Assembly: GCA_947653315.1 (NCBI GenBank)
Contig: CANTGP010000024.1
Span: 1 to 14,889 of the forward strand
Direction: 5' to 3'
Length of the DNA: 14,889 nt
From: an uncultured Lachnospiraceae bacterium
GTDB taxonomy: Bacteria; Bacillota; Clostridia; Lachnospirales; Lachnospiraceae
Shown here: piece after piece, positions 2,828 through 12,185 of the stretch
Layout: the number at the start of each line of letters is the position of its first letter
Numbering within the stretch: the first letter of the stretch is position 1
Program-made: the position numbers and the translations under genes
Notes under the pieces: generated by a model
What the model was told of the DNA's origin: nothing
Seen by the model: the letters and a program-made list of their open reading frames with translations, nothing else
Database searches by the model: none

Positions 2828-2836
2828 AATACTTAT

Positions 2837-2843
2837 CTCTCCT
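2837..2843 (-). promoter_or_regulatory. Ribosome binding site of the binding-protein gene
   Basis: AGGAGAG on the minus strand, 9 nt before the ATG at 2827. It fixes the start at the lipoprotein signal peptide and rules out the longer open frame reaching 3043. Confidence 0.85.
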
Positions 2844-2906
2844 TTTCTGCTGAAATACTGTTTCCCGTTTCCGGCAACTGCCCCACCGCTTCCCGTTTCT
2901 GTTTTC

Positions 2907-2942
2907 CATTCCTGTCTACATTCCTGTCTACATTCCTGTTTG
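2907..2942. repeat. Three 12-bp tandem repeats in the binding-protein leader
   Basis: CATTCCTGTCTA at 2907-2918 and 2919-2930 are identical; CATTCCTGTTTG at 2931-2942 differs in its last bases. They lie between the predicted promoter and the ribosome binding site, next to a second, unrelated 12-bp array. Confidence 0.85.
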
Positions 2943-2960
2943 TCATTATGGCAATCATTA

Positions 2961-3032
2961 CGGTAACGGTTTCGGTAACGATGTCGGTACCGTTTTCGGT
3001 ATCGTTGTCGGTAACGTTTCCGATTACATTTT
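2961..3032. repeat. Five to six degenerate 12-bp tandem repeats at the transcription start of the sugar operon
   Basis: Plus-strand units: CGGTAACGGTTT (2961), CGGTAACGATGT (2973), CGGTACCGTTTT (2985), CGGTATCGTTGT (2997), CGGTAACGTTTC (3009) and a diverged CGATTACATTTT (3021). The core CGGTAaCGttt is kept. Several units form CG-centred palindromes, such as CGGTACCG (2985-2992) and the imperfect CGGTAACGTTTCCG (3009-3022). The array begins just downstream of the predicted -10 box, so it overlaps the transcription start and the leader. Possible roles are a multi-site operator, for instance for a LacI-type regulator, or a purely structural repeat. Confidence 0.85.
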
Positions 3033-3033
3033 G

Positions 3034-3062
3034 AGAATATCATTCCTCACCAAATATTGCAA
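3034..3062 (-). promoter_or_regulatory. Predicted sigma-A promoter of the sugar ABC operon
   Basis: Minus strand: -35 TTGCAA (3062-3057), 17-nt spacer, -10 TATTCT (3039-3034). Each box matches consensus at four positions and the spacing is ideal. Transcription would start near 3027, inside the first 12-bp repeat, giving a leader of about 200 nt before the ATG at 2827. Confidence 0.6.
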
Positions 3063-3314: not shown

Positions 3315-4718
3315 CTATTCCTTTCCGTCCCAGCAATACGTACACAGTTTACACCGTTCAATCCCCACCGACTCCATCATATCATCCAGCCTGTGGTAGC
3401 GCAGGGAGGTAAAATTAAGCTGCTCCCTGATCCGCTCCAGCATTTCCCCGTATTCCTCCGTCTCCGGGTCGGAATATGCCTCCAGGCGGGTAAACCTGCC
3501 TTCCCGCTCCAAATCCTTTAACACCCTGCGGGCAATCAAATCCATTTCCGAAGTGGAACGGGAGAAATTCAGGTATTTACAGCCGTAAAGCAGCGGCGGG
3601 CACGCCGGACGGATATGCACTTCCTTCGCGCCGCTTTGGTAAAGGAACTCCGTAGTCTCCCTAAGCTGGGTTCCCCTGACGATGGAATCGTCAATTAAAA
3701 GAAGGCTCTTATCCTGGATTAAATCGTGGACGGGAATCAGTTTCATCTTCGCAATCAGGTTCCTTTGGCTCTGTATCGTGGGCATAAAGGAACGGGGCCA
3801 TGTGGGCGTATACTTAATGAACGGACGGGAAAACGGAATCCCCGACTCATTGGAATAGCCGATGGCATGGGCAGTCCCGGAATCCGGCACCCCTGCCACG
3901 ATATCCGGCTGTGCATCATCCCTTCTGGCAAGCAGCGAGCCGCAGTTATAGCGCATCTTTTCCACGCTGATTCCCTCATAAGAGGAAGACGGGTAACCGT
4001 AATAAACCCATAAAAACGTGCAGATTTTCATGTCTTTCCCCGGTGCTGCAAGCGTATGGACCCCCTCCGGCGTCACGATAACCACTTCCCCCGGTCCCAG
4101 TTCCCGCTCCCCGGTATACCCAAGGTTTAAATAAGCAAAGCTCTCAAAGGAAATGCAGTATGCATCGTCCTTTTTTCCCAGCGCCACAGGCGTCCGTCCC
4201 ATCCGGTCCCTTGCCGCATAAATCCCCTTTGCGGTCATTAACAGTATGGTCATGGAACCGTCTATGATTTCCTGCGCATACCGGATGCCTTCCACCAGGT
4301 TTTCCTTTTGGTTAATAATTGCCGCCACCAGTTCCGTGGCATTGATATCCCCGCCGCTCATTTCCAGAAAATGGGAATGCCCGGACCGGAAAACCTGCTC
4401 CACGATTTTGTCCGTATTATTAATCTTTCCCACCGTTTCTATGGCATAGGTGCCGTGATGGGAACGCACGATTAACGGCTGCGGCTCATAATCGGAAATG
4501 CAGCCGATGCCCAGGAAGCCTTTCATTTCATTTAAGTCTTTATCGAACTTGGTACGGAACGGTGCGTTCTCGATATTGTGGATGGCGCGGTCAAAACCCT
4601 TTTCCCCGTATACCGCCAGTCCCGCCCGCCTTGTCCCCAAATGGGAATGGTAATCCGTCCCGAAAAACAAGTCAAACATGCAATCCTTTTTTGATGCCAC
4701 TCCAAAAAATCCACCCAT
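3315..4718 (-). CDS. PurF-like amidophosphoribosyltransferase paralogue lacking the glutaminase catalytic cysteine
   Basis: 467-residue relative of PurF, last gene of the purine operon. The C-terminal phosphoribosyltransferase part is well kept: PRPP loop at residues 338-352 (LLLIDDSIVRGTQL) and the region AGVPDSGTAHAIGYS (275-289). Cysteines matching the four 4Fe-4S ligands of Bacillus-type PurF are present at 233, 380, 456 and 459. The N-terminal glutaminase part is degenerate. The protein starts MGGFFGVAS where PurF has mature CGVFGI, so the Ntn nucleophile Cys is Gly; HRGQE is TRRAG (29-33), GHVRYST is GCISDYE (72-78), HNG is TVG (95-97). The start is firm: GAGG precedes the ATG, and an in-frame TAA lies two codons upstream, so no missed cysteine exists. 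Expected to be unable to use glutamine. It could use free ammonia, act with PurF, or be regulatory. Databases probably label it simply PurF. Confidence 0.88.
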   Translation of the reverse strand: MGGFFGVASKKDCMFDLFFGTDYHSHLGTRRAGLAVYGEKGFDRAIHNIENAPFRTKFDKDLNEMKGFLGIGCISDYEPQPLIVRSHHGTYAIETVGKINNTDKIVEQVFRSGHSHFLEMSGGDINATELVAAIINQKENLVEGIRYAQEIIDGSMTILLMTAKGIYAARDRMGRTPVALGKKDDAYCISFESFAYLNLGYTGERELGPGEVVIVTPEGVHTLAAPGKDMKICTFLWVYYGYPSSSYEGISVEKMRYNCGSLLARRDDAQPDIVAGVPDSGTAHAIGYSNESGIPFSRPFIKYTPTWPRSFMPTIQSQRNLIAKMKLIPVHDLIQDKSLLLIDDSIVRGTQLRETTEFLYQSGAKEVHIRPACPPLLYGCKYLNFSRSTSEMDLIARRVLKDLEREGRFTRLEAYSDPETEEYGEMLERIREQLNFTSLRYHRLDDMMESVGIERCKLCTYCWDGKE

Positions 4719-4785: not shown

Positions 4786-6219
4786 CTATACGTTAATCTC
4801 CGCTTTCACGCCCAGCAAATCCTTATGCTTCTCCAGCAACGGACGGATGACACCGGAAAGGAATGCCTCCACCTGCTCTTTGGACCGTCCCACGTATTTG
4901 GCCGGGTCCATGGTTTTGCGCAAATCCTCCAGGGTCATGTTAAACGCGGGATCCGCCGCAATCAATTCCAGTAAATTATTATCCTTTCCTTCCACCTTCA
5001 CGTTCCTGCCCGCTTCCATGGAAAGCGTGCGGATCTTCTCATGCAATTCCTGCCTGTCGCCCCCTGCCTTTACCGCATCCATCATGATATTCTCCGTCGC
5101 CATGAACGGCAGCTCGCTCATCAGCCGTTTTTCGATGACTTTCGGGTATACCACCAAACCGTCCACCACATTCAGGCACAAATCCAAAATACCGTCCACC
5201 GCAAGAAACCCTTCCGGTATGGAAAGCCTTTTATTCGCCGAATCATCCAACGTCCGCTCAAACCACTGGGTCGCCGAAGTAATGGCGGGATTTAATGCAT
5301 CCACCATCACATAACGGGAGAGGGAAGCAATCCTTTCACTCCGCATGGGATTACGCTTATACGCCATGGCGGAAGACCCGATCTGGCTCTTTTCAAACGG
5401 TTCCTCCACTTCCTTTAAATGCTGGAGCAGACGGATATCGTTGGACATCTTATGGGCGCTGGCAGCAATGCCCGCCAGCACGTTTACGACTCTCGTATCC
5501 ACCTTGCGGGAATACGTCTGGCCCGATACCGGGTAGCATTCCGCAAACCCCATTTTTTCCGCAATCATCGGATCAATCTTATCAATGGTTTCCTGGTCCC
5601 CGTCAAAAAGCTCCAAAAAGGACGCCTGCGTCCCTGTGGTTCCCTTGGAGCCCAAAAGTTTCATATGGGAAAGCACATGCTCCAAATCCTCCAAATCAAG
5701 AAAGAACTCCTGCAGCCAAAGCGTCGCCCTCTTTCCCACGGTGGTGGGCTGCGCCGGCTGGAAATGGGTAAAGGCAAGCGTGGGCTGCGCCTTGTATTCC
5801 TCCGCGAAATCGGCAAGTTCCTTCATCACGTTCACCAGTTTCTTTTTCACCAGCTTAAGCGCTTCCGTCATGACGATGATATCCGTGTTGTCGCCCACAT
5901 AACAGGACGTGGCGCCCAAATGGATGATGCCTTTCGCTTTCGGACACTGTACCCCGTATGCATACACATGGCTCATGACGTCATGGCGGACTTCCTTCTC
6001 CCGCGCCTTTGCCACATCGTAATTGATATCCTCCGCATGCGCCTTTAGCTCGTCAATCTGCTCCTGCGTAATGGGAAGCCCCAGTTCCTTTTCCGTCTCC
6101 GCAAGGGCAATCCACAATTTCCTCCATGTGCGGAACTTCATGTCCGGCGAAAAAATATACTGCATTTCTTTGCTGGCATACCGTTCCGAAAGCGGACTCT
6201 GATATCTGTCTGTACTCAT
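4786..6219 (-). CDS. purB: Adenylosuccinate lyase
   Basis: Cytosolic tetrameric enzyme that removes fumarate twice in purine synthesis: SAICAR to AICAR, and adenylosuccinate to AMP. The 477-residue product carries the fumarase/aspartase superfamily signature at 281-291 (GSSAMAYKRNP, followed by MRSERIASLSR), the HLGATSCYVGDNTD block (100-113) and THFQPAQPTT (151-160), which contains the conserved active-site histidine. The length and the YKRNPMRSER motif match the longer, human-like ADSL subgroup rather than the roughly 430-residue B. subtilis form. The ATG at 6219-6217 is preferred because GAGGAGAGG lies just upstream; a frame open 21 codons further has no such site. It lies 68 bp after purF and is followed by a stem-loop and the PurF-like gene. 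PurC, encoded in the same operon, makes its substrate SAICAR. Confidence 0.97.
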   Translation of the reverse strand: MSTDRYQSPLSERYASKEMQYIFSPDMKFRTWRKLWIALAETEKELGLPITQEQIDELKAHAEDINYDVAKAREKEVRHDVMSHVYAYGVQCPKAKGIIHLGATSCYVGDNTDIIVMTEALKLVKKKLVNVMKELADFAEEYKAQPTLAFTHFQPAQPTTVGKRATLWLQEFFLDLEDLEHVLSHMKLLGSKGTTGTQASFLELFDGDQETIDKIDPMIAEKMGFAECYPVSGQTYSRKVDTRVVNVLAGIAASAHKMSNDIRLLQHLKEVEEPFEKSQIGSSAMAYKRNPMRSERIASLSRYVMVDALNPAITSATQWFERTLDDSANKRLSIPEGFLAVDGILDLCLNVVDGLVVYPKVIEKRLMSELPFMATENIMMDAVKAGGDRQELHEKIRTLSMEAGRNVKVEGKDNNLLELIAADPAFNMTLEDLRKTMDPAKYVGRSKEQVEAFLSGVIRPLLEKHKDLLGVKAEINV

Positions 6220-6222
6220 AAA

Positions 6223-6231
6223 CCTCTCCTC
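6223..6231 (-). promoter_or_regulatory. Ribosome binding site of purB
   Basis: GAGGAGAGG on the minus strand, three nt before the ATG at 6219 (six nt from the GAGGAG core). It selects MSTDRYQ as the N-terminus over a longer open frame starting at 6282. Confidence 0.85.
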
Positions 6232-6287
6232 TCTGATTCCATGACTTTCCACGACCTCCAATGGCCTTCCATGGCTTTCCATGCTTC

Positions 6288-7787
6288 CTACCGCTCATAA
6301 TCCCCGCGGATATCCCCTTTGGGCGGTTCCATGGGATACCTTCCGTTAAAGCAGCCCTTGCAGATACCAAGGCCGCCCACCATTTCCTCCAGCCGTTCTT
6401 CCTTCAGGTAAGCAAGGGAATCGGCGCCTATGATGGCGCAGATTTCCTCCACGGTGCGCCCGTGGGCAATGAGCTGCTCCTTTGCCGGTACGTCCGTACC
6501 GAAATAACAGGGCCATAAAAAAGGCGGGGAACTGATCCTCATATGCACTTCCTCCGCCCCCGCTTCCCGCAGCATATGCACGATGCGGTCGGAAGTCGTT
6601 CCACGCACGATGGAATCATCGATCATGATAATCCGCTTTCCTTCCACGGCTTCCCGCAGCGCGTTCAGTTTCACCCGTACACTGCTCTCCCTGCTTTTCT
6701 GTTTGGGCTTTATAAACGTGCGCCCCACATAGGTATTCTTCACAAACGCCTGTCCGTAAGGGATGCCCGACTGCAAAGAATATCCGAGCGCCGCACAATT
6801 CCCCGATTCCGGCACGCCCACCACCAAATCCGCCTCCACGGGCGAATCCATGGCGAGAAACCTGCCCGCCAAAATGCGCGCATTATAAACGCTGACACCG
6901 TCAATATAACTGTCCGGTCTTGCAAAATAAATATATTCAAAGATGCACCTGGCATGTTTTTCTTCCGGGATGCAAAGGGATTGGTCGGATTCGATTCCCT
7001 TTTCCGGCGAAATCGTTACGATTTCCCCCGGCAGCACGTCCCTGACATATTCCGCGCCCACCGTATCCAGCGCGCAGGTCTCGGAAGCCAAAAGATAAGC
7101 ATTGTCCCGTTTCCCGATGCAAAGCGGCCGGAAACCAAAGGGATCCCTCGCCCCGATCAGCTTTCTCGGCGACATCACAATCAGCGAATAAGCGCCCTTA
7201 ATCTTCCGCATGGCACGCCCCACCGCTTCCTCCACGGTGGCGGAATTCAGCCGTTCCCTGGCGATATGGTAAGCAATCACTTCCGAATCGATGGTGGTCT
7301 GGAAAATCGCCCCCGTGTATTCCAGTTCGTGACGCAGCTCCGGCGCATTCACCAGGTTACCGTTATGGGCAAGCCCCAAAGTTCCTTTCACGTAATTTAA
7401 CACCAAGGGCTGGGCATTTTCCCTCGTGCTGCTTCCCGCCGTGGAATAGCGCACATGCCCCACGCCGATGTCACCCTTTAACGTATCCAAAAGCTCCGGC
7501 GTAAAGGCTTCATTCAAAAGTCCCATATCCTTGGCGCTTACCACTTTCCCTTTCGGTCCGTTCGTATCGCTGACCGCAATGCCGCAGCTCTCCTGCCCCC
7601 TGTGCTGGAGCGCAAACAGCCCGTAATAAATCGTGGATGCCACGTCCCCGCCGGAAAAATCATACATGCCGAAAACACCGCATTCTTCCTTCAGCCTGTC
7701 CGTCCCGCCGCTTTGCGCCCGTCCCTGTTCCATCTGCCCTTGTTCCATCTGCCCTTGTTCCATCTGCCCCGTATACTCCATATGCAT
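6288..7787 (-). CDS. purF: Amidophosphoribosyltransferase (glutamine PRPP amidotransferase)
   Basis: First committed enzyme of de novo purine synthesis: PRPP plus glutamine to 5-phosphoribosylamine. The product has 499 residues. The Ntn glutaminase nucleophile is Cys36 (EECGVFGMY), exposed after removal of a 35-residue propeptide. Other glutaminase motifs are intact: HRGQE (62-66), GHVRYST (110-116), HNG (141-143), Asp168. The PRPP loop is at 386-399 (IIMIDDSIVRGTTS). Putative 4Fe-4S ligands are Cys281, 427, 476 and 479 (CKGC), as in B. subtilis PurF. The ATG at 7787 overlaps the purC stop by one base (TAATG); no strong ribosome binding site is visible there, so translational coupling to purC is likely, and ATG 7781 is an alternative. 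The propeptide is unusually long and carries three GQMEQ repeats, compared with about 11 residues in B. subtilis. Confidence 0.97.
   Translation of the reverse strand: MHMEYTGQMEQGQMEQGQMEQGRAQSGGTDRLKEECGVFGMYDFSGGDVASTIYYGLFALQHRGQESCGIAVSDTNGPKGKVVSAKDMGLLNEAFTPELLDTLKGDIGVGHVRYSTAGSSTRENAQPLVLNYVKGTLGLAHNGNLVNAPELRHELEYTGAIFQTTIDSEVIAYHIARERLNSATVEEAVGRAMRKIKGAYSLIVMSPRKLIGARDPFGFRPLCIGKRDNAYLLASETCALDTVGAEYVRDVLPGEIVTISPEKGIESDQSLCIPEEKHARCIFEYIYFARPDSYIDGVSVYNARILAGRFLAMDSPVEADLVVGVPESGNCAALGYSLQSGIPYGQAFVKNTYVGRTFIKPKQKSRESSVRVKLNALREAVEGKRIIMIDDSIVRGTTSDRIVHMLREAGAEEVHMRISSPPFLWPCYFGTDVPAKEQLIAHGRTVEEICAIIGADSLAYLKEERLEEMVGGLGICKGCFNGRYPMEPPKGDIRGDYER
7726..7770 (-). repeat. Three 15-bp tandem repeats in the purF propeptide region
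   Basis: TGTTCCATCTGCCCT (plus strand) at 7726-7740 and 7741-7755, and with one change at 7756-7770. On the minus strand they encode GQMEQ three times (PurF residues 7-21), upstream of the catalytic Cys36. Copy-number change would keep the frame and affect only the part removed on maturation. Each unit also carries an ATG shortly after an AAGGG or GGGG run. Confidence 0.92.
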
Positions 7788-8491
7788 TACAACCCAAGCC
7801 GTTTAAACACTTCGTTATAGGCTTCCTCCACATTGCCAAGATCCCTGCGGAAACGGTCTTTGTCCAGTTTTTCGTTGGTATGTACGTCCCAAAGCCTGCA
7901 GGTATCCGGGGATGTTTCGTCCGCAAGGAGAATTTTCCCATGGAAACGTCCGAATTCAATCTTAAAATCAATGAGCTTAATGTCCGCCTGCAGGAAATAT
8001 GCCTTCAGCACCTCATTTACCTGAAACGCATATTTCTTAATGGTTTCGATTTCCTCCCATGTCGCCAGTCCCAGCGCAACCGCAAAATAACTGTTGATCA
8101 GCGGATCGCCGAGTTCATCGTTTTTATAACTGAATTCAATGGTAGGCTCCTTGAACGGGGTACCCTCCGGAACGCCCAGCCGTTTGGAAAAGCTGCCTGC
8201 CGCCACATTACGGATAATCACTTCAAGCGGAACGATTTCCACCTTCTTTACCGCCGTTTCCCTGTCGCTCAGTTCCTCAATGAAATGGGTGGGAACCCCT
8301 TCCTTTTCCAAAAGCCGGAACACATGGTTGGTCATTTTGTTATTAATGACGCCCTTTCCGACAATCGTCCCCTTCTTCTCCCCGTTAAATGCAGTAGCGT
8401 CGTCCTTGTAATCCACGATTACCACATCCGCGTCATCCGTCGCAAATACCTTCTTTGCCTTTCCTTCATAAAGCTGTTCCAATTTCTTCAT
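7787..8491 (-). CDS. purC: Phosphoribosylaminoimidazole-succinocarboxamide synthase (SAICAR synthetase)
   Basis: Cytosolic ATP-dependent ligase joining aspartate to CAIR to give SAICAR, the substrate of PurB. The product has 234 residues, close to the 240 or so usual for bacterial PurC. It begins with the nucleotide-binding [10 protein letters not shown] (6-15) and carries SAICAR synthetase signature 1 ([17 protein letters not shown]), signature 2 (LIDFKIEFG) and the later SPDTCRLWD. The ATG at 8491-8489 has GGAGG 5 nt upstream; the frame is open 18 codons further but that part overlaps the leader. It is the first gene of the purine operon, about 50 nt after the predicted transcription start, and its stop overlaps the purF start. 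Confidence 0.97.
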
Positions 8492-8496
8492 GTTTT

Positions 8497-8501
8497 CCTC
8501 C
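8497..8501 (-). promoter_or_regulatory. Ribosome binding site of purC
   Basis: GGAGG on the minus strand, 5 nt before the ATG at 8491. It sets the PurC start at [11 protein letters not shown]; the longer open frame to 8545 would begin at about the transcription start. Confidence 0.85.
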
Positions 8502-8550
8502 GTTCCGCCTGCCGGCAAAAGATAATTCAAGCAAAATCCTGTCACTTTGA

Positions 8551-8606: not shown

Positions 8607-11600
8607 TTATTTCAACCGGAACAGGCGCGAAACCATATATTCTTTCCGGTAATAATCCGCCAAAAGCTGGTCCGCCGTATCATAATCCTGCAATACCTGT
8701 GCCGTCACGATATCGTTAATCAGCGCAAACCTGCTGTCCGTTTCCCCGGGCAGGGAATCCGCCGGGGTAATGACGGCGCTTTCCGTCACCTGTTCGCTGC
8801 CATAGCTTTCCTCCGAGATATAATAACGGAGTTTTTCCCCGAAAAACAATACGAACGCCTTGGCATACACCCCGCCGTACATATCGGTCATTTCCTCTTT
8901 ACGGTAACGGTCCGGTCCTTCTTCGTTTCCCTCCGCTTCCGTCATATAGTGGATGGACACCCTCCCGCCGGATACCGACTGGTATTCCACGATGGTTTTG
9001 TCCTCATACTGCAAAAGCTCCGGCAATTCCCCCGCATAGTCCTTATAGAACGAAAAACACAATTCCTCCCCCAGCAGACCGCGTAAGAAATCCCTTACCG
9101 CCGCCCGCACCTTTTCCGTAATTTCCCCCTTATGCCCCGCATAATATTTCAAAAATGCCAGCCGGCATACCTTGTCCAGCGGCTCCCCCCGTTCGTACAC
9201 ACGAAGCATATCCGTAAACACAAAAGAGTCGGTTTCCCTGCCCTTTAGGAAAAAGCCGCGGGAACAACGGGTTAGGAATGCCGTTTCCACTTCCGCTTTC
9301 GCCCCTCCCGCAATATAGGTACGGAACACATCCATCTGCTCCGCCACCACGGCGCCGGTTTCCATCATTTGGGTCAGGATGCGTTCACACAGCCCATAGG
9401 TATCCACTTCAAAGGCTTCCGCCGCCTTCCATATATCCCGCAGCCGTTTCATCGTTCCATGGTAAAAGCGGCATAAATAAAAAAGAAGGTTCCCGTCATA
9501 TTTTCCCTTTCCGAACACATGGTAAACCACCGGCGTCATTTCCGCATCTTCCACGAAACCGTCCCTGGCAATCAGCCTGCTGCACAGCCGCATCATGATC
9601 TTACTGTCCGTCCCCTGTACGCCGAACCGCTTCAGCCACAAAAGCGCCTTGTCATACATGGCACGCATAACAAGGAAGCGGATGATTTCGTTCCTCTCCC
9701 TTCCGTTCTTCCCTTCCGGTCCTATCTCCTCCAGATAACGGTCCAAATCCATCATATAGTCCCGCTCGTAATAATAATGCAGCAGTTTCAGACATACTTC
9801 GTTGCGCCTGTCGTTTTCAATGTTTTCCGAAGCAGCGATATGCCGGAAACGGCTTTCGTTTTCTTCCGTGATTTCCTGAAAGGAATGCCCGTTCCCGCAC
9901 AGGTAAATATCCAGCCCTTCATGCTCCGGTACGAAACCGCCCACCGCATCCGCCAGCTTCCCCGCACGCATCAGCCGCTCCATCCGGTGCGGCACACTGA
10001 CCGTATAACGGTAACCCGCCCCATCCTCCAAAAACACTTTATAATCTTCCCCGTACAAAGGCAGGTATCCTTTCCCGCCGTTTAACGGGTAGCGGTATTC
10101 CTTCCGGTCAATGGCATAACACACCACGGCATTGCGTACTTCCTTATTCTCCGTCTGCACCATATAAGTAAAAAGCAGGGGAAGCAGTTCCTTTGCCTTT
10201 TCCTCATCCAACTGTCCTGCCAAAAGGGTATTTTGGTACAGATATGCCAAATCCTCGTTAATCCTGCCCTTTTTTAACTGTGCCTGCACAAAACGGTCAA
10301 TCTGCGCACAAAATTTTATGTAATATTCGGGATGTTCCTCCCTCTTTTTATGGATATAGGCATACAGGAAAGCATTCTTTTTATAATCCAGGTTGCTTTG
10401 GTATGCAAAATACATCAGAACAATCCGGGGGATTTCCTCCCCGTAACCCTCCGGCAGCGCCATCATGTAATATTCATACAGCTTCGTAATCCGCAGTTCC
10501 TTCTCCACCCCCATCCGGTACCACGGGAAATAACGCTCCTCCGTCCGGTTTCCCTTAATGAGCAGCGTACAGATTGCCTGCAGCGTTTCGTTATCCGGGT
10601 ATTTTCCGTAACATGCCTGCAAAACGGCAAGGGCATGGGGGGAATCATCCCTTAATTTCTGCGCCTGGTAACGGATTTGCACAATGACGTCCTGGCTCAG
10701 CAAATCTTTGCGTGCCGCAAACCGCAACACCTGCAGTTCAAAAGAATGGAGCTTCATCAGTAAGGTTGGGTTCATTTCCAAAAGATGCCACGCCTCAACA
10801 TAAAGTACCGGACTGACACATCCTTGCCGGAATTGTTCTTCCAAAACCAGCCACCGCTTGGAAGGACTTTTCACATATTCCTCCGATACATGCAGCATCA
10901 GCCAAGCAATCCGCCAGTTTCCCGGATTCATCCGGTAAAGTTTTCCGATACGCTCCGCCGTCCGGTCCACGTATTCCCCGTCGTCGCTAAGCAGCGTTTT
11001 CAAATAAAGATAATAACAGTTGATTTCCGGCGGACATTCTTCCAGCAGCACTTCCTCCTTCAGCCGGTCCAATTGCCAGGCGGCTTCCTTATACCGCTCC
11101 TGCGTCAGGTATAACTGCGCCTGGAACAACCTGGTCTGGATATCCTTCGAATCCAAAGCCGCCAGCCGTTCCACCAGTTTTTCCGTTTCCGCCATCCATG
11201 TCCCCGCCGTCAGCTTCTTTCCCCTGTAATTACAGAAATACTCCATTAACAGTACCAAAATCTGCTTTTTTTCCCGCTCCAGTCCGAGCGCCCGCAGACG
11301 TTTGCCACTGCCGCGCACCGTCACCGGAATCCGGATGTCGGTATAGGAATTATAGACACGGAGACAGCCGTAATTGCGTCCCGCATGAAGACAGCCGCCG
11401 TCGATATAATATGCCAGCCTGCAGGTATTGCCAAGGAATTCGTTATCGGTCAAACGGTCCTTTTCCACACGCAGGAAATCCCCTTCCGCTTCCACATGCA
11501 GGAAGGTATACCCCCAACCAATCCTGGTGACAAGTATGCTGTGTTCCGACACTCCGGCAACATCATCCAGCCGTATCTGCGTTTGGTCCACGGCAAACGT

Positions 11601-12185
11601 TACCTTCTGTTTCTTATTGGTTTCCAACAGAAATTCTTCCACGTTCCGTTCATTGCCCCGTACTGCCGACAACCCCTTATAGGCACAGTAATACTGCCTG
11701 TCCGCCCCTTTGGTAAAAATACGTTGGAACTCCTTGGAATAAAAAACTTTCACCGCCTCGTCCCAATTCACTTTCGCCAAATTGGCAAAATGGAAAACAT
11801 TACGGATTTCTCCCAAACTGGAAGAAACGGTTTCCTTTTCCATCGTAATCCGGTAAGGAATCTCGTATTCCCCGTAATTGGACAGAATGGTAAAAAAACC
11901 TTCCCATACGTCCCCTTCTTCCATTCCTTCGCTGTCAAAACGGTAGGCAATTTCTTCTTTTTTCCCGATAAACTCCCCTGTCAGGAGCCGCATCTTAAGC
12001 TCCGAAGAATACACGCACCCCTCCGCGGGCACTTCCCCCGGCGCGTATACCGTAAAAAAACCTTCCGCAATTTCCCCTTTGGAGACGGAAAGCTCTATGC
12101 TTTCCACCGAAAATCCCAACGGCTCACGGTCCAAATCCGCCTGTCCGGAACCGTTCTTCCTCTCATCGTAGTTTCCCGCTGCCAC
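8607..12185 (-). CDS. Large conserved protein of unknown function (possible DUF5717 family)
   Basis: 1192 residues. From memory it resembles the Lachnospiraceae family named DUF5717; I could not verify this. There is no signal peptide or obvious membrane segment, so it is probably cytosolic. Residues about 20-295 are beta-rich with alternating polar and hydrophobic strands (for example GEIAEGFFTVYAPGEVP and LRVYNSYTDIRIPVTV), suggesting one or more Ig-like sandwiches. From about 300 on it is mostly helical, with repeated patterns such as LFQAQLYLTQERYKEAAWQL that look like TPR-type repeats. The last 150 or so residues again contain beta-like stretches (KTIVEYQSVSGGRVSIHYM). The start is GTG at 12185, with AGGAAGG 9 nt upstream. 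It follows the MCP gene by 79 nt without a terminator, so co-transcription is likely. TPR and beta-sandwich content suggests a scaffold, but the function is not known to me. Confidence 0.85.
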   Translation of the reverse strand: MAAGNYDERKNGSGQADLDREPLGFSVESIELSVSKGEIAEGFFTVYAPGEVPAEGCVYSSELKMRLLTGEFIGKKEEIAYRFDSEGMEEGDVWEGFFTILSNYGEYEIPYRITMEKETVSSSLGEIRNVFHFANLAKVNWDEAVKVFYSKEFQRIFTKGADRQYYCAYKGLSAVRGNERNVEEFLLETNKKQKVTFAVDQTQIRLDDVAGVSEHSILVTRIGWGYTFLHVEAEGDFLRVEKDRLTDNEFLGNTCRLAYYIDGGCLHAGRNYGCLRVYNSYTDIRIPVTVRGSGKRLRALGLEREKKQILVLLMEYFCNYRGKKLTAGTWMAETEKLVERLAALDSKDIQTRLFQAQLYLTQERYKEAAWQLDRLKEEVLLEECPPEINCYYLYLKTLLSDDGEYVDRTAERIGKLYRMNPGNWRIAWLMLHVSEEYVKSPSKRWLVLEEQFRQGCVSPVLYVEAWHLLEMNPTLLMKLHSFELQVLRFAARKDLLSQDVIVQIRYQAQKLRDDSPHALAVLQACYGKYPDNETLQAICTLLIKGNRTEERYFPWYRMGVEKELRITKLYEYYMMALPEGYGEEIPRIVLMYFAYQSNLDYKKNAFLYAYIHKKREEHPEYYIKFCAQIDRFVQAQLKKGRINEDLAYLYQNTLLAGQLDEEKAKELLPLLFTYMVQTENKEVRNAVVCYAIDRKEYRYPLNGGKGYLPLYGEDYKVFLEDGAGYRYTVSVPHRMERLMRAGKLADAVGGFVPEHEGLDIYLCGNGHSFQEITEENESRFRHIAASENIENDRRNEVCLKLLHYYYERDYMMDLDRYLEEIGPEGKNGRERNEIIRFLVMRAMYDKALLWLKRFGVQGTDSKIMMRLCSRLIARDGFVEDAEMTPVVYHVFGKGKYDGNLLFYLCRFYHGTMKRLRDIWKAAEAFEVDTYGLCERILTQMMETGAVVAEQMDVFRTYIAGGAKAEVETAFLTRCSRGFFLKGRETDSFVFTDMLRVYERGEPLDKVCRLAFLKYYAGHKGEITEKVRAAVRDFLRGLLGEELCFSFYKDYAGELPELLQYEDKTIVEYQSVSGGRVSIHYMTEAEGNEEGPDRYRKEEMTDMYGGVYAKAFVLFFGEKLRYYISEESYGSEQVTESAVITPADSLPGETDSRFALINDIVTAQVLQDYDTADQLLADYYRKEYMVSRLFRLK

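Follow-up and report, generated by a model that had tools for sequence, protein, structure and literature searches.

Why should a purine gene run hold two PurF-like genes, one of them with a dead glutaminase half? The question is raised by the stretch of DNA analyzed here (the window), 14,889 nucleotides of contig CANTGP010000024.1 from an uncultured Lachnospiraceae bacterium (assembly GCA_947653315.1), in which an intact purF is accompanied by the gene of a second PurF-fold protein, hereafter PurF2. We propose, with a probability of roughly 75%, that PurF2 is a phosphoribosylamine (PRA) synthase, acting in de novo purine synthesis with ammonia and not glutamine as its nitrogen source, a reading drawn from sequence comparison. 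The committed purine step is taught as glutamine-dependent, and 26 of the genomes sampled apparently run the pathway on PurF2 alone. Many gut bacteria carry such a glutaminase-dead second PurF, on which some seem to depend exclusively.

Residues lost and kept in PurF2

For comparison, PurF2 was aligned with six canonical PurFs, among them those of E. coli and of the window itself. A structure model predicts that it folds as a PurF over its whole length, with an N-terminal nucleophile (Ntn) and a phosphoribosyltransferase (PRTase) domain. Its features, which include the loops for phosphoribosyl pyrophosphate (PRPP) and pyrophosphate and the putative iron–sulfur (Fe-S) positions, are as follows.

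3315..4718, minus strand: PurF2 coding sequence, a glutaminase-dead PurF-fold protein of 467 residues (open reading frame, domain searches, alignment, model)
4620..4718, minus strand: residues 1–33, MGGFFG...FGTDYHSHLGTRRAG; the Cys1 nucleophile is replaced by Gly and HRGQ by HLGT, and the clade motif DYxSHL is present (alignment)
4476..4511, minus strand: residues 70–81, GIGCISDYEPQP; the glutamine loop GHVRYxTxG is lost, with an 8-column gap (alignment)
4020..4022, minus strand: Cys233, Fe-S position 1 (alignment)
3876..3890, minus strand: residues 277–281, VPDSG, pyrophosphate loop, kept (alignment)
3780..3815, minus strand: residues 302–313, KYTPTWPRSFMP, flexible loop (alignment, model)
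3666..3692, minus strand: residues 343–351, DDSIVRGTQ, PRPP loop, kept (alignment)
3579..3581, minus strand: Cys380, Fe-S position 2 (alignment)
3441..3527, minus strand: residues ~398–426, C-terminal insert, not in the aligned canonical PurFs (alignment)
3333..3344, minus strand: Cys459 and Cys462 (CTYC), Fe-S positions 3 and 4 (alignment)

By its sequence, the glutamine site is lost. HRGQ(D/E) of canonical PurF reads HLGT, GHVRYxTxG is reduced to GCI followed by the gap, HNG has become TVG, and the Asp site S-D-x-E has become N-x-T-E. The alignment thus agrees with an earlier sequence-only reading of this DNA, which had described the exchange of the nucleophilic Cys for Gly and changes in the HRGQE, GHVRYST, and HNG motifs, together with retention of the PRPP loop and of four Fe-S cysteine positions. 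An in-frame TAA, also named in that reading, lies two codons upstream of the ATG start codon (open frame F-MGGFFG...), and there is no Cys near the start, which rules out a missed N-terminus. The PRPP loop DDSIVRGT, the pyrophosphate loop VPDS, and both basic residues (Lys and Arg) of the flexible loop are all retained. The four cysteines match in position the Fe-S ligands of B. subtilis-type enzymes. They occur without exception in an alignment of 18 PurF2 proteins and in all 59 rows of a deeper one, which include one canonical PurF. Two further differences that had been pointed out, an altered loop at KYTPTWPRSFMP and an enlarged C-terminal region, are both seen: the loop retains Lys/Arg, has its Tyr-Val-Gly replaced, is one residue longer than the canonical loop, and is modeled with a predicted local distance difference test (pLDDT) score below 50 at residues 304–311; the insert is ~25 residues long.

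A separate clade under purifying selection

PurF2 matches Pfam GATase_7 with 27.8 bits and the purF equivalog NCBIfam TIGR01134 with 192.5 bits, under the cut-off of 350. A PurF2 match of at least 620 bits was found in 28 of 398 genomes of the phylum (the window's own counted); the best non-PurF2 match scored 200 bits, and none fell between the two values. Outside this sample, relatives were seen in Peptoclostridium (60% identity) and in Parabacteroides, Bacteroides, and Phocaeicola (47–48%), all from plasmid-collection records. These records and the protein database, where Bacteroides forms named amidophosphoribosyltransferase lie on 1000 contigs, make up our coverage of the Bacteroidota.

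Gly or Ser occupies the place of the Cys in all 35 N-termini inspected among 37 loci (L020 and L030 left out), and the 31 PurF2 proteins from genomes with PurF2 only all have Gly or Ser there, DDSIVRGTQ, and CTYC. A tree of 75 rows splits 66 PurF2 from 9 canonical PurFs by one branch with a Shimodaira–Hasegawa-like approximate likelihood ratio test (SH-aLRT) support of 100; the tree is a quick one and the separating branch long, which leaves both the rooting and the depth of this split uncertain. In six within-genus pairs, the ratio of nonsynonymous to synonymous substitution rates (dN/dS) is 0.017–0.040 for the whole protein and 0.011–0.044 for the two halves taken separately, rough values given that dS exceeds 1 (saturated) in five of the six. 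Since both halves show low ratios, the dead Ntn domain is also constrained. On these sequence comparisons PurF2 forms a separate clade that spans Bacillota and Bacteroidota and is strongly constrained by purifying selection; clade-wide loss of the Cys and low dN/dS rule out a lone mutation, and they bear out the sequence-only view of a functional protein that is not in decay.

One genome of the phylum, G233, holds two PurF2 copies (G233:C67 and G233:C49), 59–61% identical to that of the window.

Genomes with PurF2 and no canonical PurF

The family sample comprised 296 Lachnospiraceae genomes, at least 95% complete except the window's own (G000, 81%). It splits into 180 genomes with PurF2 and a further match, 87 with PurF only, 26 with PurF2 only, and three with neither; the first class reflects match counts, in which second matches were not individually checked. 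PurF2 carriers therefore number 206 of 296, including G612, which has the weakest PurF2 score in the family (E 2.7e-129). No canonical PurF was found in 26 of these 206, from 24 genera, all 26 with purD over cut-off and with purM. That PurF2 should always be accompanied by an intact PurF, as had been expected, is not supported by these genomes; of the expected family tree, the fixed loss of the Cys (to Gly or Ser) was found and the constant co-occurrence with PurF was not.

purD was over cut-off in 293 of the 296 genomes, and the missing ones are exactly the three that lack both PurF and PurF2, none of which has purM. Loss of PurF with purD kept occurs in 26 of 206 carriers versus 0 of 90 others (Fisher p 7e-5, uncorrected for relatedness). 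Put differently, every one of the 26 purD-positive genomes without PurF has PurF2, and PurF is present in all 87 purD-positive genomes that do not have PurF2.

With the window's canonical PurF as query, 25 of the 26 PurF2-only genomes (G004 left out) returned PurF2 at ~30% identity and 28 weaker matches. A hidden long-form PurF among the latter was rejected for the 25 that were fetched, which are GlmS (20) or AsnB (5), the three unfetched lying in G708, G628, and G687; 19 of the 20 GlmS assignments were made by the C-terminus only, from a motif typical of GlmS. Assembly gaps as the source of the PurF-less genomes are countered by the spread over 24 genera, by G693, a single contig rated 100% complete, and by G477, with five contigs. 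On the PurF2 tree, the label for both proteins or PurF2 only (32 and 31 rows) switches at least 12 times, with the former rows thinly sampled. In a separate set of 54 genomes checked for canonical PurF by TIGR01134, 47 were over cut-off; the other seven are six PurF2-only genomes and G038, with neither protein. Among five further PurF2-only genomes, purD and purM are present in four (G010, G012, G021, 67% complete, and G040, 99%) and were not detected in the fifth, G378.

Gene neighborhoods of PurF2

The window's genes of the purine run, apart from PurF2, are as follows; the real PurF that had been read in this DNA is present.

7787..8545, minus strand: purC, upstream of purF in the same gene run (Pfam/NCBIfam)
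6288..7787, minus strand: canonical purF with intact ECGVFG, TIGR01134 516.7 bits (open reading frame, NCBIfam)
4786..6282, minus strand: purB, placed between purF and PurF2 (Pfam/NCBIfam)

The minus-strand order is purC-purF-purB-PurF2, then a solute-binding protein gene and a transporter-like gene. Within the window's genus, this purine order is shared by G000 and G008; G004, G010, and G012 (99, 87, and 92% complete) have purC-purB-PurF2, and in these three species a search of the rest of the genome gave no canonical PurF over cut-off. In other genomes PurF2 occupies the purF slot itself, among the PurF2-only ones in two genera. Specifically, the PurF2-only genomes G603 and G582 have purE-purC-PurF2-purM-purN-purD, and G586, also PurF2-only, has purE-PurF2-purM up to the contig end. 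The run of G603 and G582 is also found in G416, with the canonical purF on a separate contig, and in G286 with a purF/PurF2 tandem (purE-purC-purF-PurF2-purM-purN-purD). In the one-contig genome G693, a purE-purM-purN-purD cluster lacks purF and PurF2 lies at a different place.

Across 95 Bacillota PurF2 loci, no conserved neighbor was found. pepT directly follows PurF2 in Bacteroides, Parabacteroides, and Peptoclostridium (L128:8001-11904, L130:6001-9783, L129:6001-8800), and gcvT comes next after pepT in the two Bacteroidota records.

carB, for the large subunit of carbamoyl phosphate synthase, adjoins PurF2 in several loci of different lineages, after it in L084, L089, L090, and L197 and before it in L142, L143, and L144 (identified by Pfam in L089 and by similarity in the others). 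In G011, of the window's genus, the canonical purF lies far from PurF2 (L137, L138) and is 63% identical to that of the window; one of the two may have been gained or moved.

A probable ammonia-fed PRA synthase

An intact PRPP site, a lost glutamine site, PurF-less genomes in which the following steps are retained, and the place in the purF slot of some pur operons together make an ammonia-fed PRA synthase the simplest explanation. We infer both that PurF2 catalyzes PRA formation and that ammonia is the donor; its sufficiency as sole PurF rests on comparative genomics. PRPP would bind in the intact PRTase site and be aminated with ammonia directly, none being released from glutamine in the N-terminal domain, and the Ntn domain would be retained as a structural and possibly regulatory part. 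In most carriers, PurF2 would provide a second way into the pathway alongside the glutamine-dependent PurF, useful at plentiful ammonia; in the 26 sampled family genomes it is apparently the sole enzyme of its kind. Ammonium is plentiful for gut and rumen anaerobes.

Chemical precedent exists. The available part of a study of the yeast enzyme PPAT (PMC12017579) describes PRA formation from ambient ammonia, and E. coli PurF mutants without Cys1 (Mei and Zalkin 1989, as cited in the available part of PMC3261824) have no glutaminase activity and still use ammonia as nitrogen source. Those mutants are an engineered single change, whereas in PurF2 the whole site appears rebuilt and evolutionarily fixed.

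Several observations weigh against this reading. Among 100 PurF2 stretches, some truncated and a few duplicating a locus, just 18 showed a purine gene (purB, purC, or purF), so that gene context alone would leave the role unsettled. In the two annotated Bacteroidota stretches, the genes beside PurF2 are pepT and gcvT, and none is a pur gene. The motifs DYxSHL and ISD, which 18 aligned PurF2 proteins share without exception at or close to the former glutamine site, suggest that the dead domain still has some further, unnamed role. G378, outside the family, has PurF2 with PurF, purD, and purM not detected (92% complete, 160 contigs; L136, G378:C114), which is likely explained by a missing pur contig. 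Finally, of the 11 genomes in the phylum sample that lack both PurF and PurF2, two (G240 and G410) hold purD; these are probably assembly gaps, and they show that such PurF absences can be gaps. Neither G378, G240 and G410, nor the Salmonella bypass discussed below accounts for PurF2 in all 26 PurF-less, purD-positive family genomes.

A bolder extension, which we consider unlikely, is that the old pocket with its DYxSHL and ISD motifs was rebuilt to sense, bind, or channel ammonia, for example GcvT-derived ammonia in Bacteroidota, making PurF2 the first example of a widespread purine entry in gut anaerobes that needs no glutamine. Purine synthesis would then be tied to ammonia or glycine catabolism rather than to glutamine.

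Alternative explanations

The alternative that survives best, improbable as we judge it, is a PRA synthase with a dedicated nitrogen source: a separate glutaminase working in trans, a catabolic enzyme that liberates ammonia (GcvT, for example), or a novel donor that binds in a rebuilt Ntn pocket. The GcvT reaction releases ammonia, and the invariant clade motifs at or near the old glutamine site and the pepT and gcvT genes behind PurF2 would fit such a source. Set against it, no Cys nucleophile is left for amide hydrolysis, the Bacillota loci showed no shared partner gene, and the pepT-gcvT link is confined to two Bacteroidota records and, in part, one clostridium.

Two further alternatives were named in the sequence-only reading beside the ammonia-dependent synthase, which fits best; the 26 PurF-less carriers with purD and purM argue against both in their pure form. 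PurF2 could be a regulatory or hetero-oligomeric partner that tunes canonical PurF and itself makes no PRA. PurF-type enzymes are tetramers, most carriers have a canonical PurF, and in the window just purB separates the two genes, but in the 26 genomes with purD and purM no canonical PurF was found for a partner to tune, and the invariant PRPP-site residues and strongly constrained PRTase half also leave this role very unlikely.

Equally unlikely is a phosphoribosyltransferase for another acceptor, with PRA supplied by a bypass in PurF-less genomes. The altered flexible loop and the C-terminal insert would suit another acceptor, and PurF-independent PRA formation is described in Salmonella mutants in the available part of PMC3485032. 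That bypass, however, relieves a thiamine requirement, and the purF strains still need purines, according to the same part of that source; PurF2 occupies the purF slot in some pur operons, and the strict association with PurF-less, purD-positive genomes in the family (26 of 26, versus 0 of 87 without PurF2) would be left over. A decaying paralogue without function, to which the loss of the Cys and glutamine-site motifs might point, is already contradicted by dN/dS of 0.01–0.04 in both halves (dS saturated in five of the six pairs) and by conservation across two phyla.

Comparison with known enzymes

The nearest solved relatives of PurF2 by sequence are B. subtilis PurF 1ao0 and 1gph. Canonical PurF (EC 2.4.2.14; also E. 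coli 1ecb) shares with it the whole-length fold, predicted for PurF2, the PRPP and pyrophosphate loops, the Fe-S Cys positions of the B. subtilis type, and a place in some pur gene runs. Unlike canonical PurF, PurF2 has no N-terminal Cys or glutamine site, a changed flexible loop, and an extra C-terminal segment, and it is 25–31% identical to the canonical rows compared, with TIGR01134 under cut-off.

The ammonia-using enzymes AsnA and ammonia-type NadE are counterparts of glutamine amidotransferases, AsnA being unrelated to AsnB and this NadE being without a glutaminase domain; PurF2, unlike them, retains a dead one. It offers a clean natural experiment in which a channeled enzyme loses one half.

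The nearest described case is the crenarchaeal PurF′ (Brown et al. 2011, PMC3261824). The available part of that paper describes a PurF-like protein without the N-terminal Cys, replaced by Ala or Val in many, encoded near purF and other pur genes, each Crenarchaeon described having a single PurF and a single PurF′; an ammonia-dependent PRPP aminotransferase is its authors' own, untested suggestion. The window's PurF2 fits this account, by description only, in being PurF-like, lacking the Cys, and lying near purF and pur genes. In contrast to PurF′, always beside PurF in that part, PurF2 also occurs without it. No account of this clade, or of genomes relying on PurF2 alone, was found in the literature searched, in which subscription journals are thinly covered. 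The archaeal question of 2011 becomes directly testable in culturable bacteria. If the proposal is true, metabolic models would change in nitrogen source and regulation, as would the predicted sensitivity to glutamine antagonists.

Other features of the window

The N-terminus of the canonical PurF (7680–7787) has propeptide-like short tandem repeats (GQMEQ) ahead of ECGVFG. The open reading frame of the solute-binding protein carries a repetitive Arg/Tyr-rich N-terminal extension (RQRYRKRYRHRYRNRYRN, 2830–3043), probably an over-long start call. Upstream of purC lies a DUF5717 protein of 1192 residues (8607–12185), to which no function is assigned.
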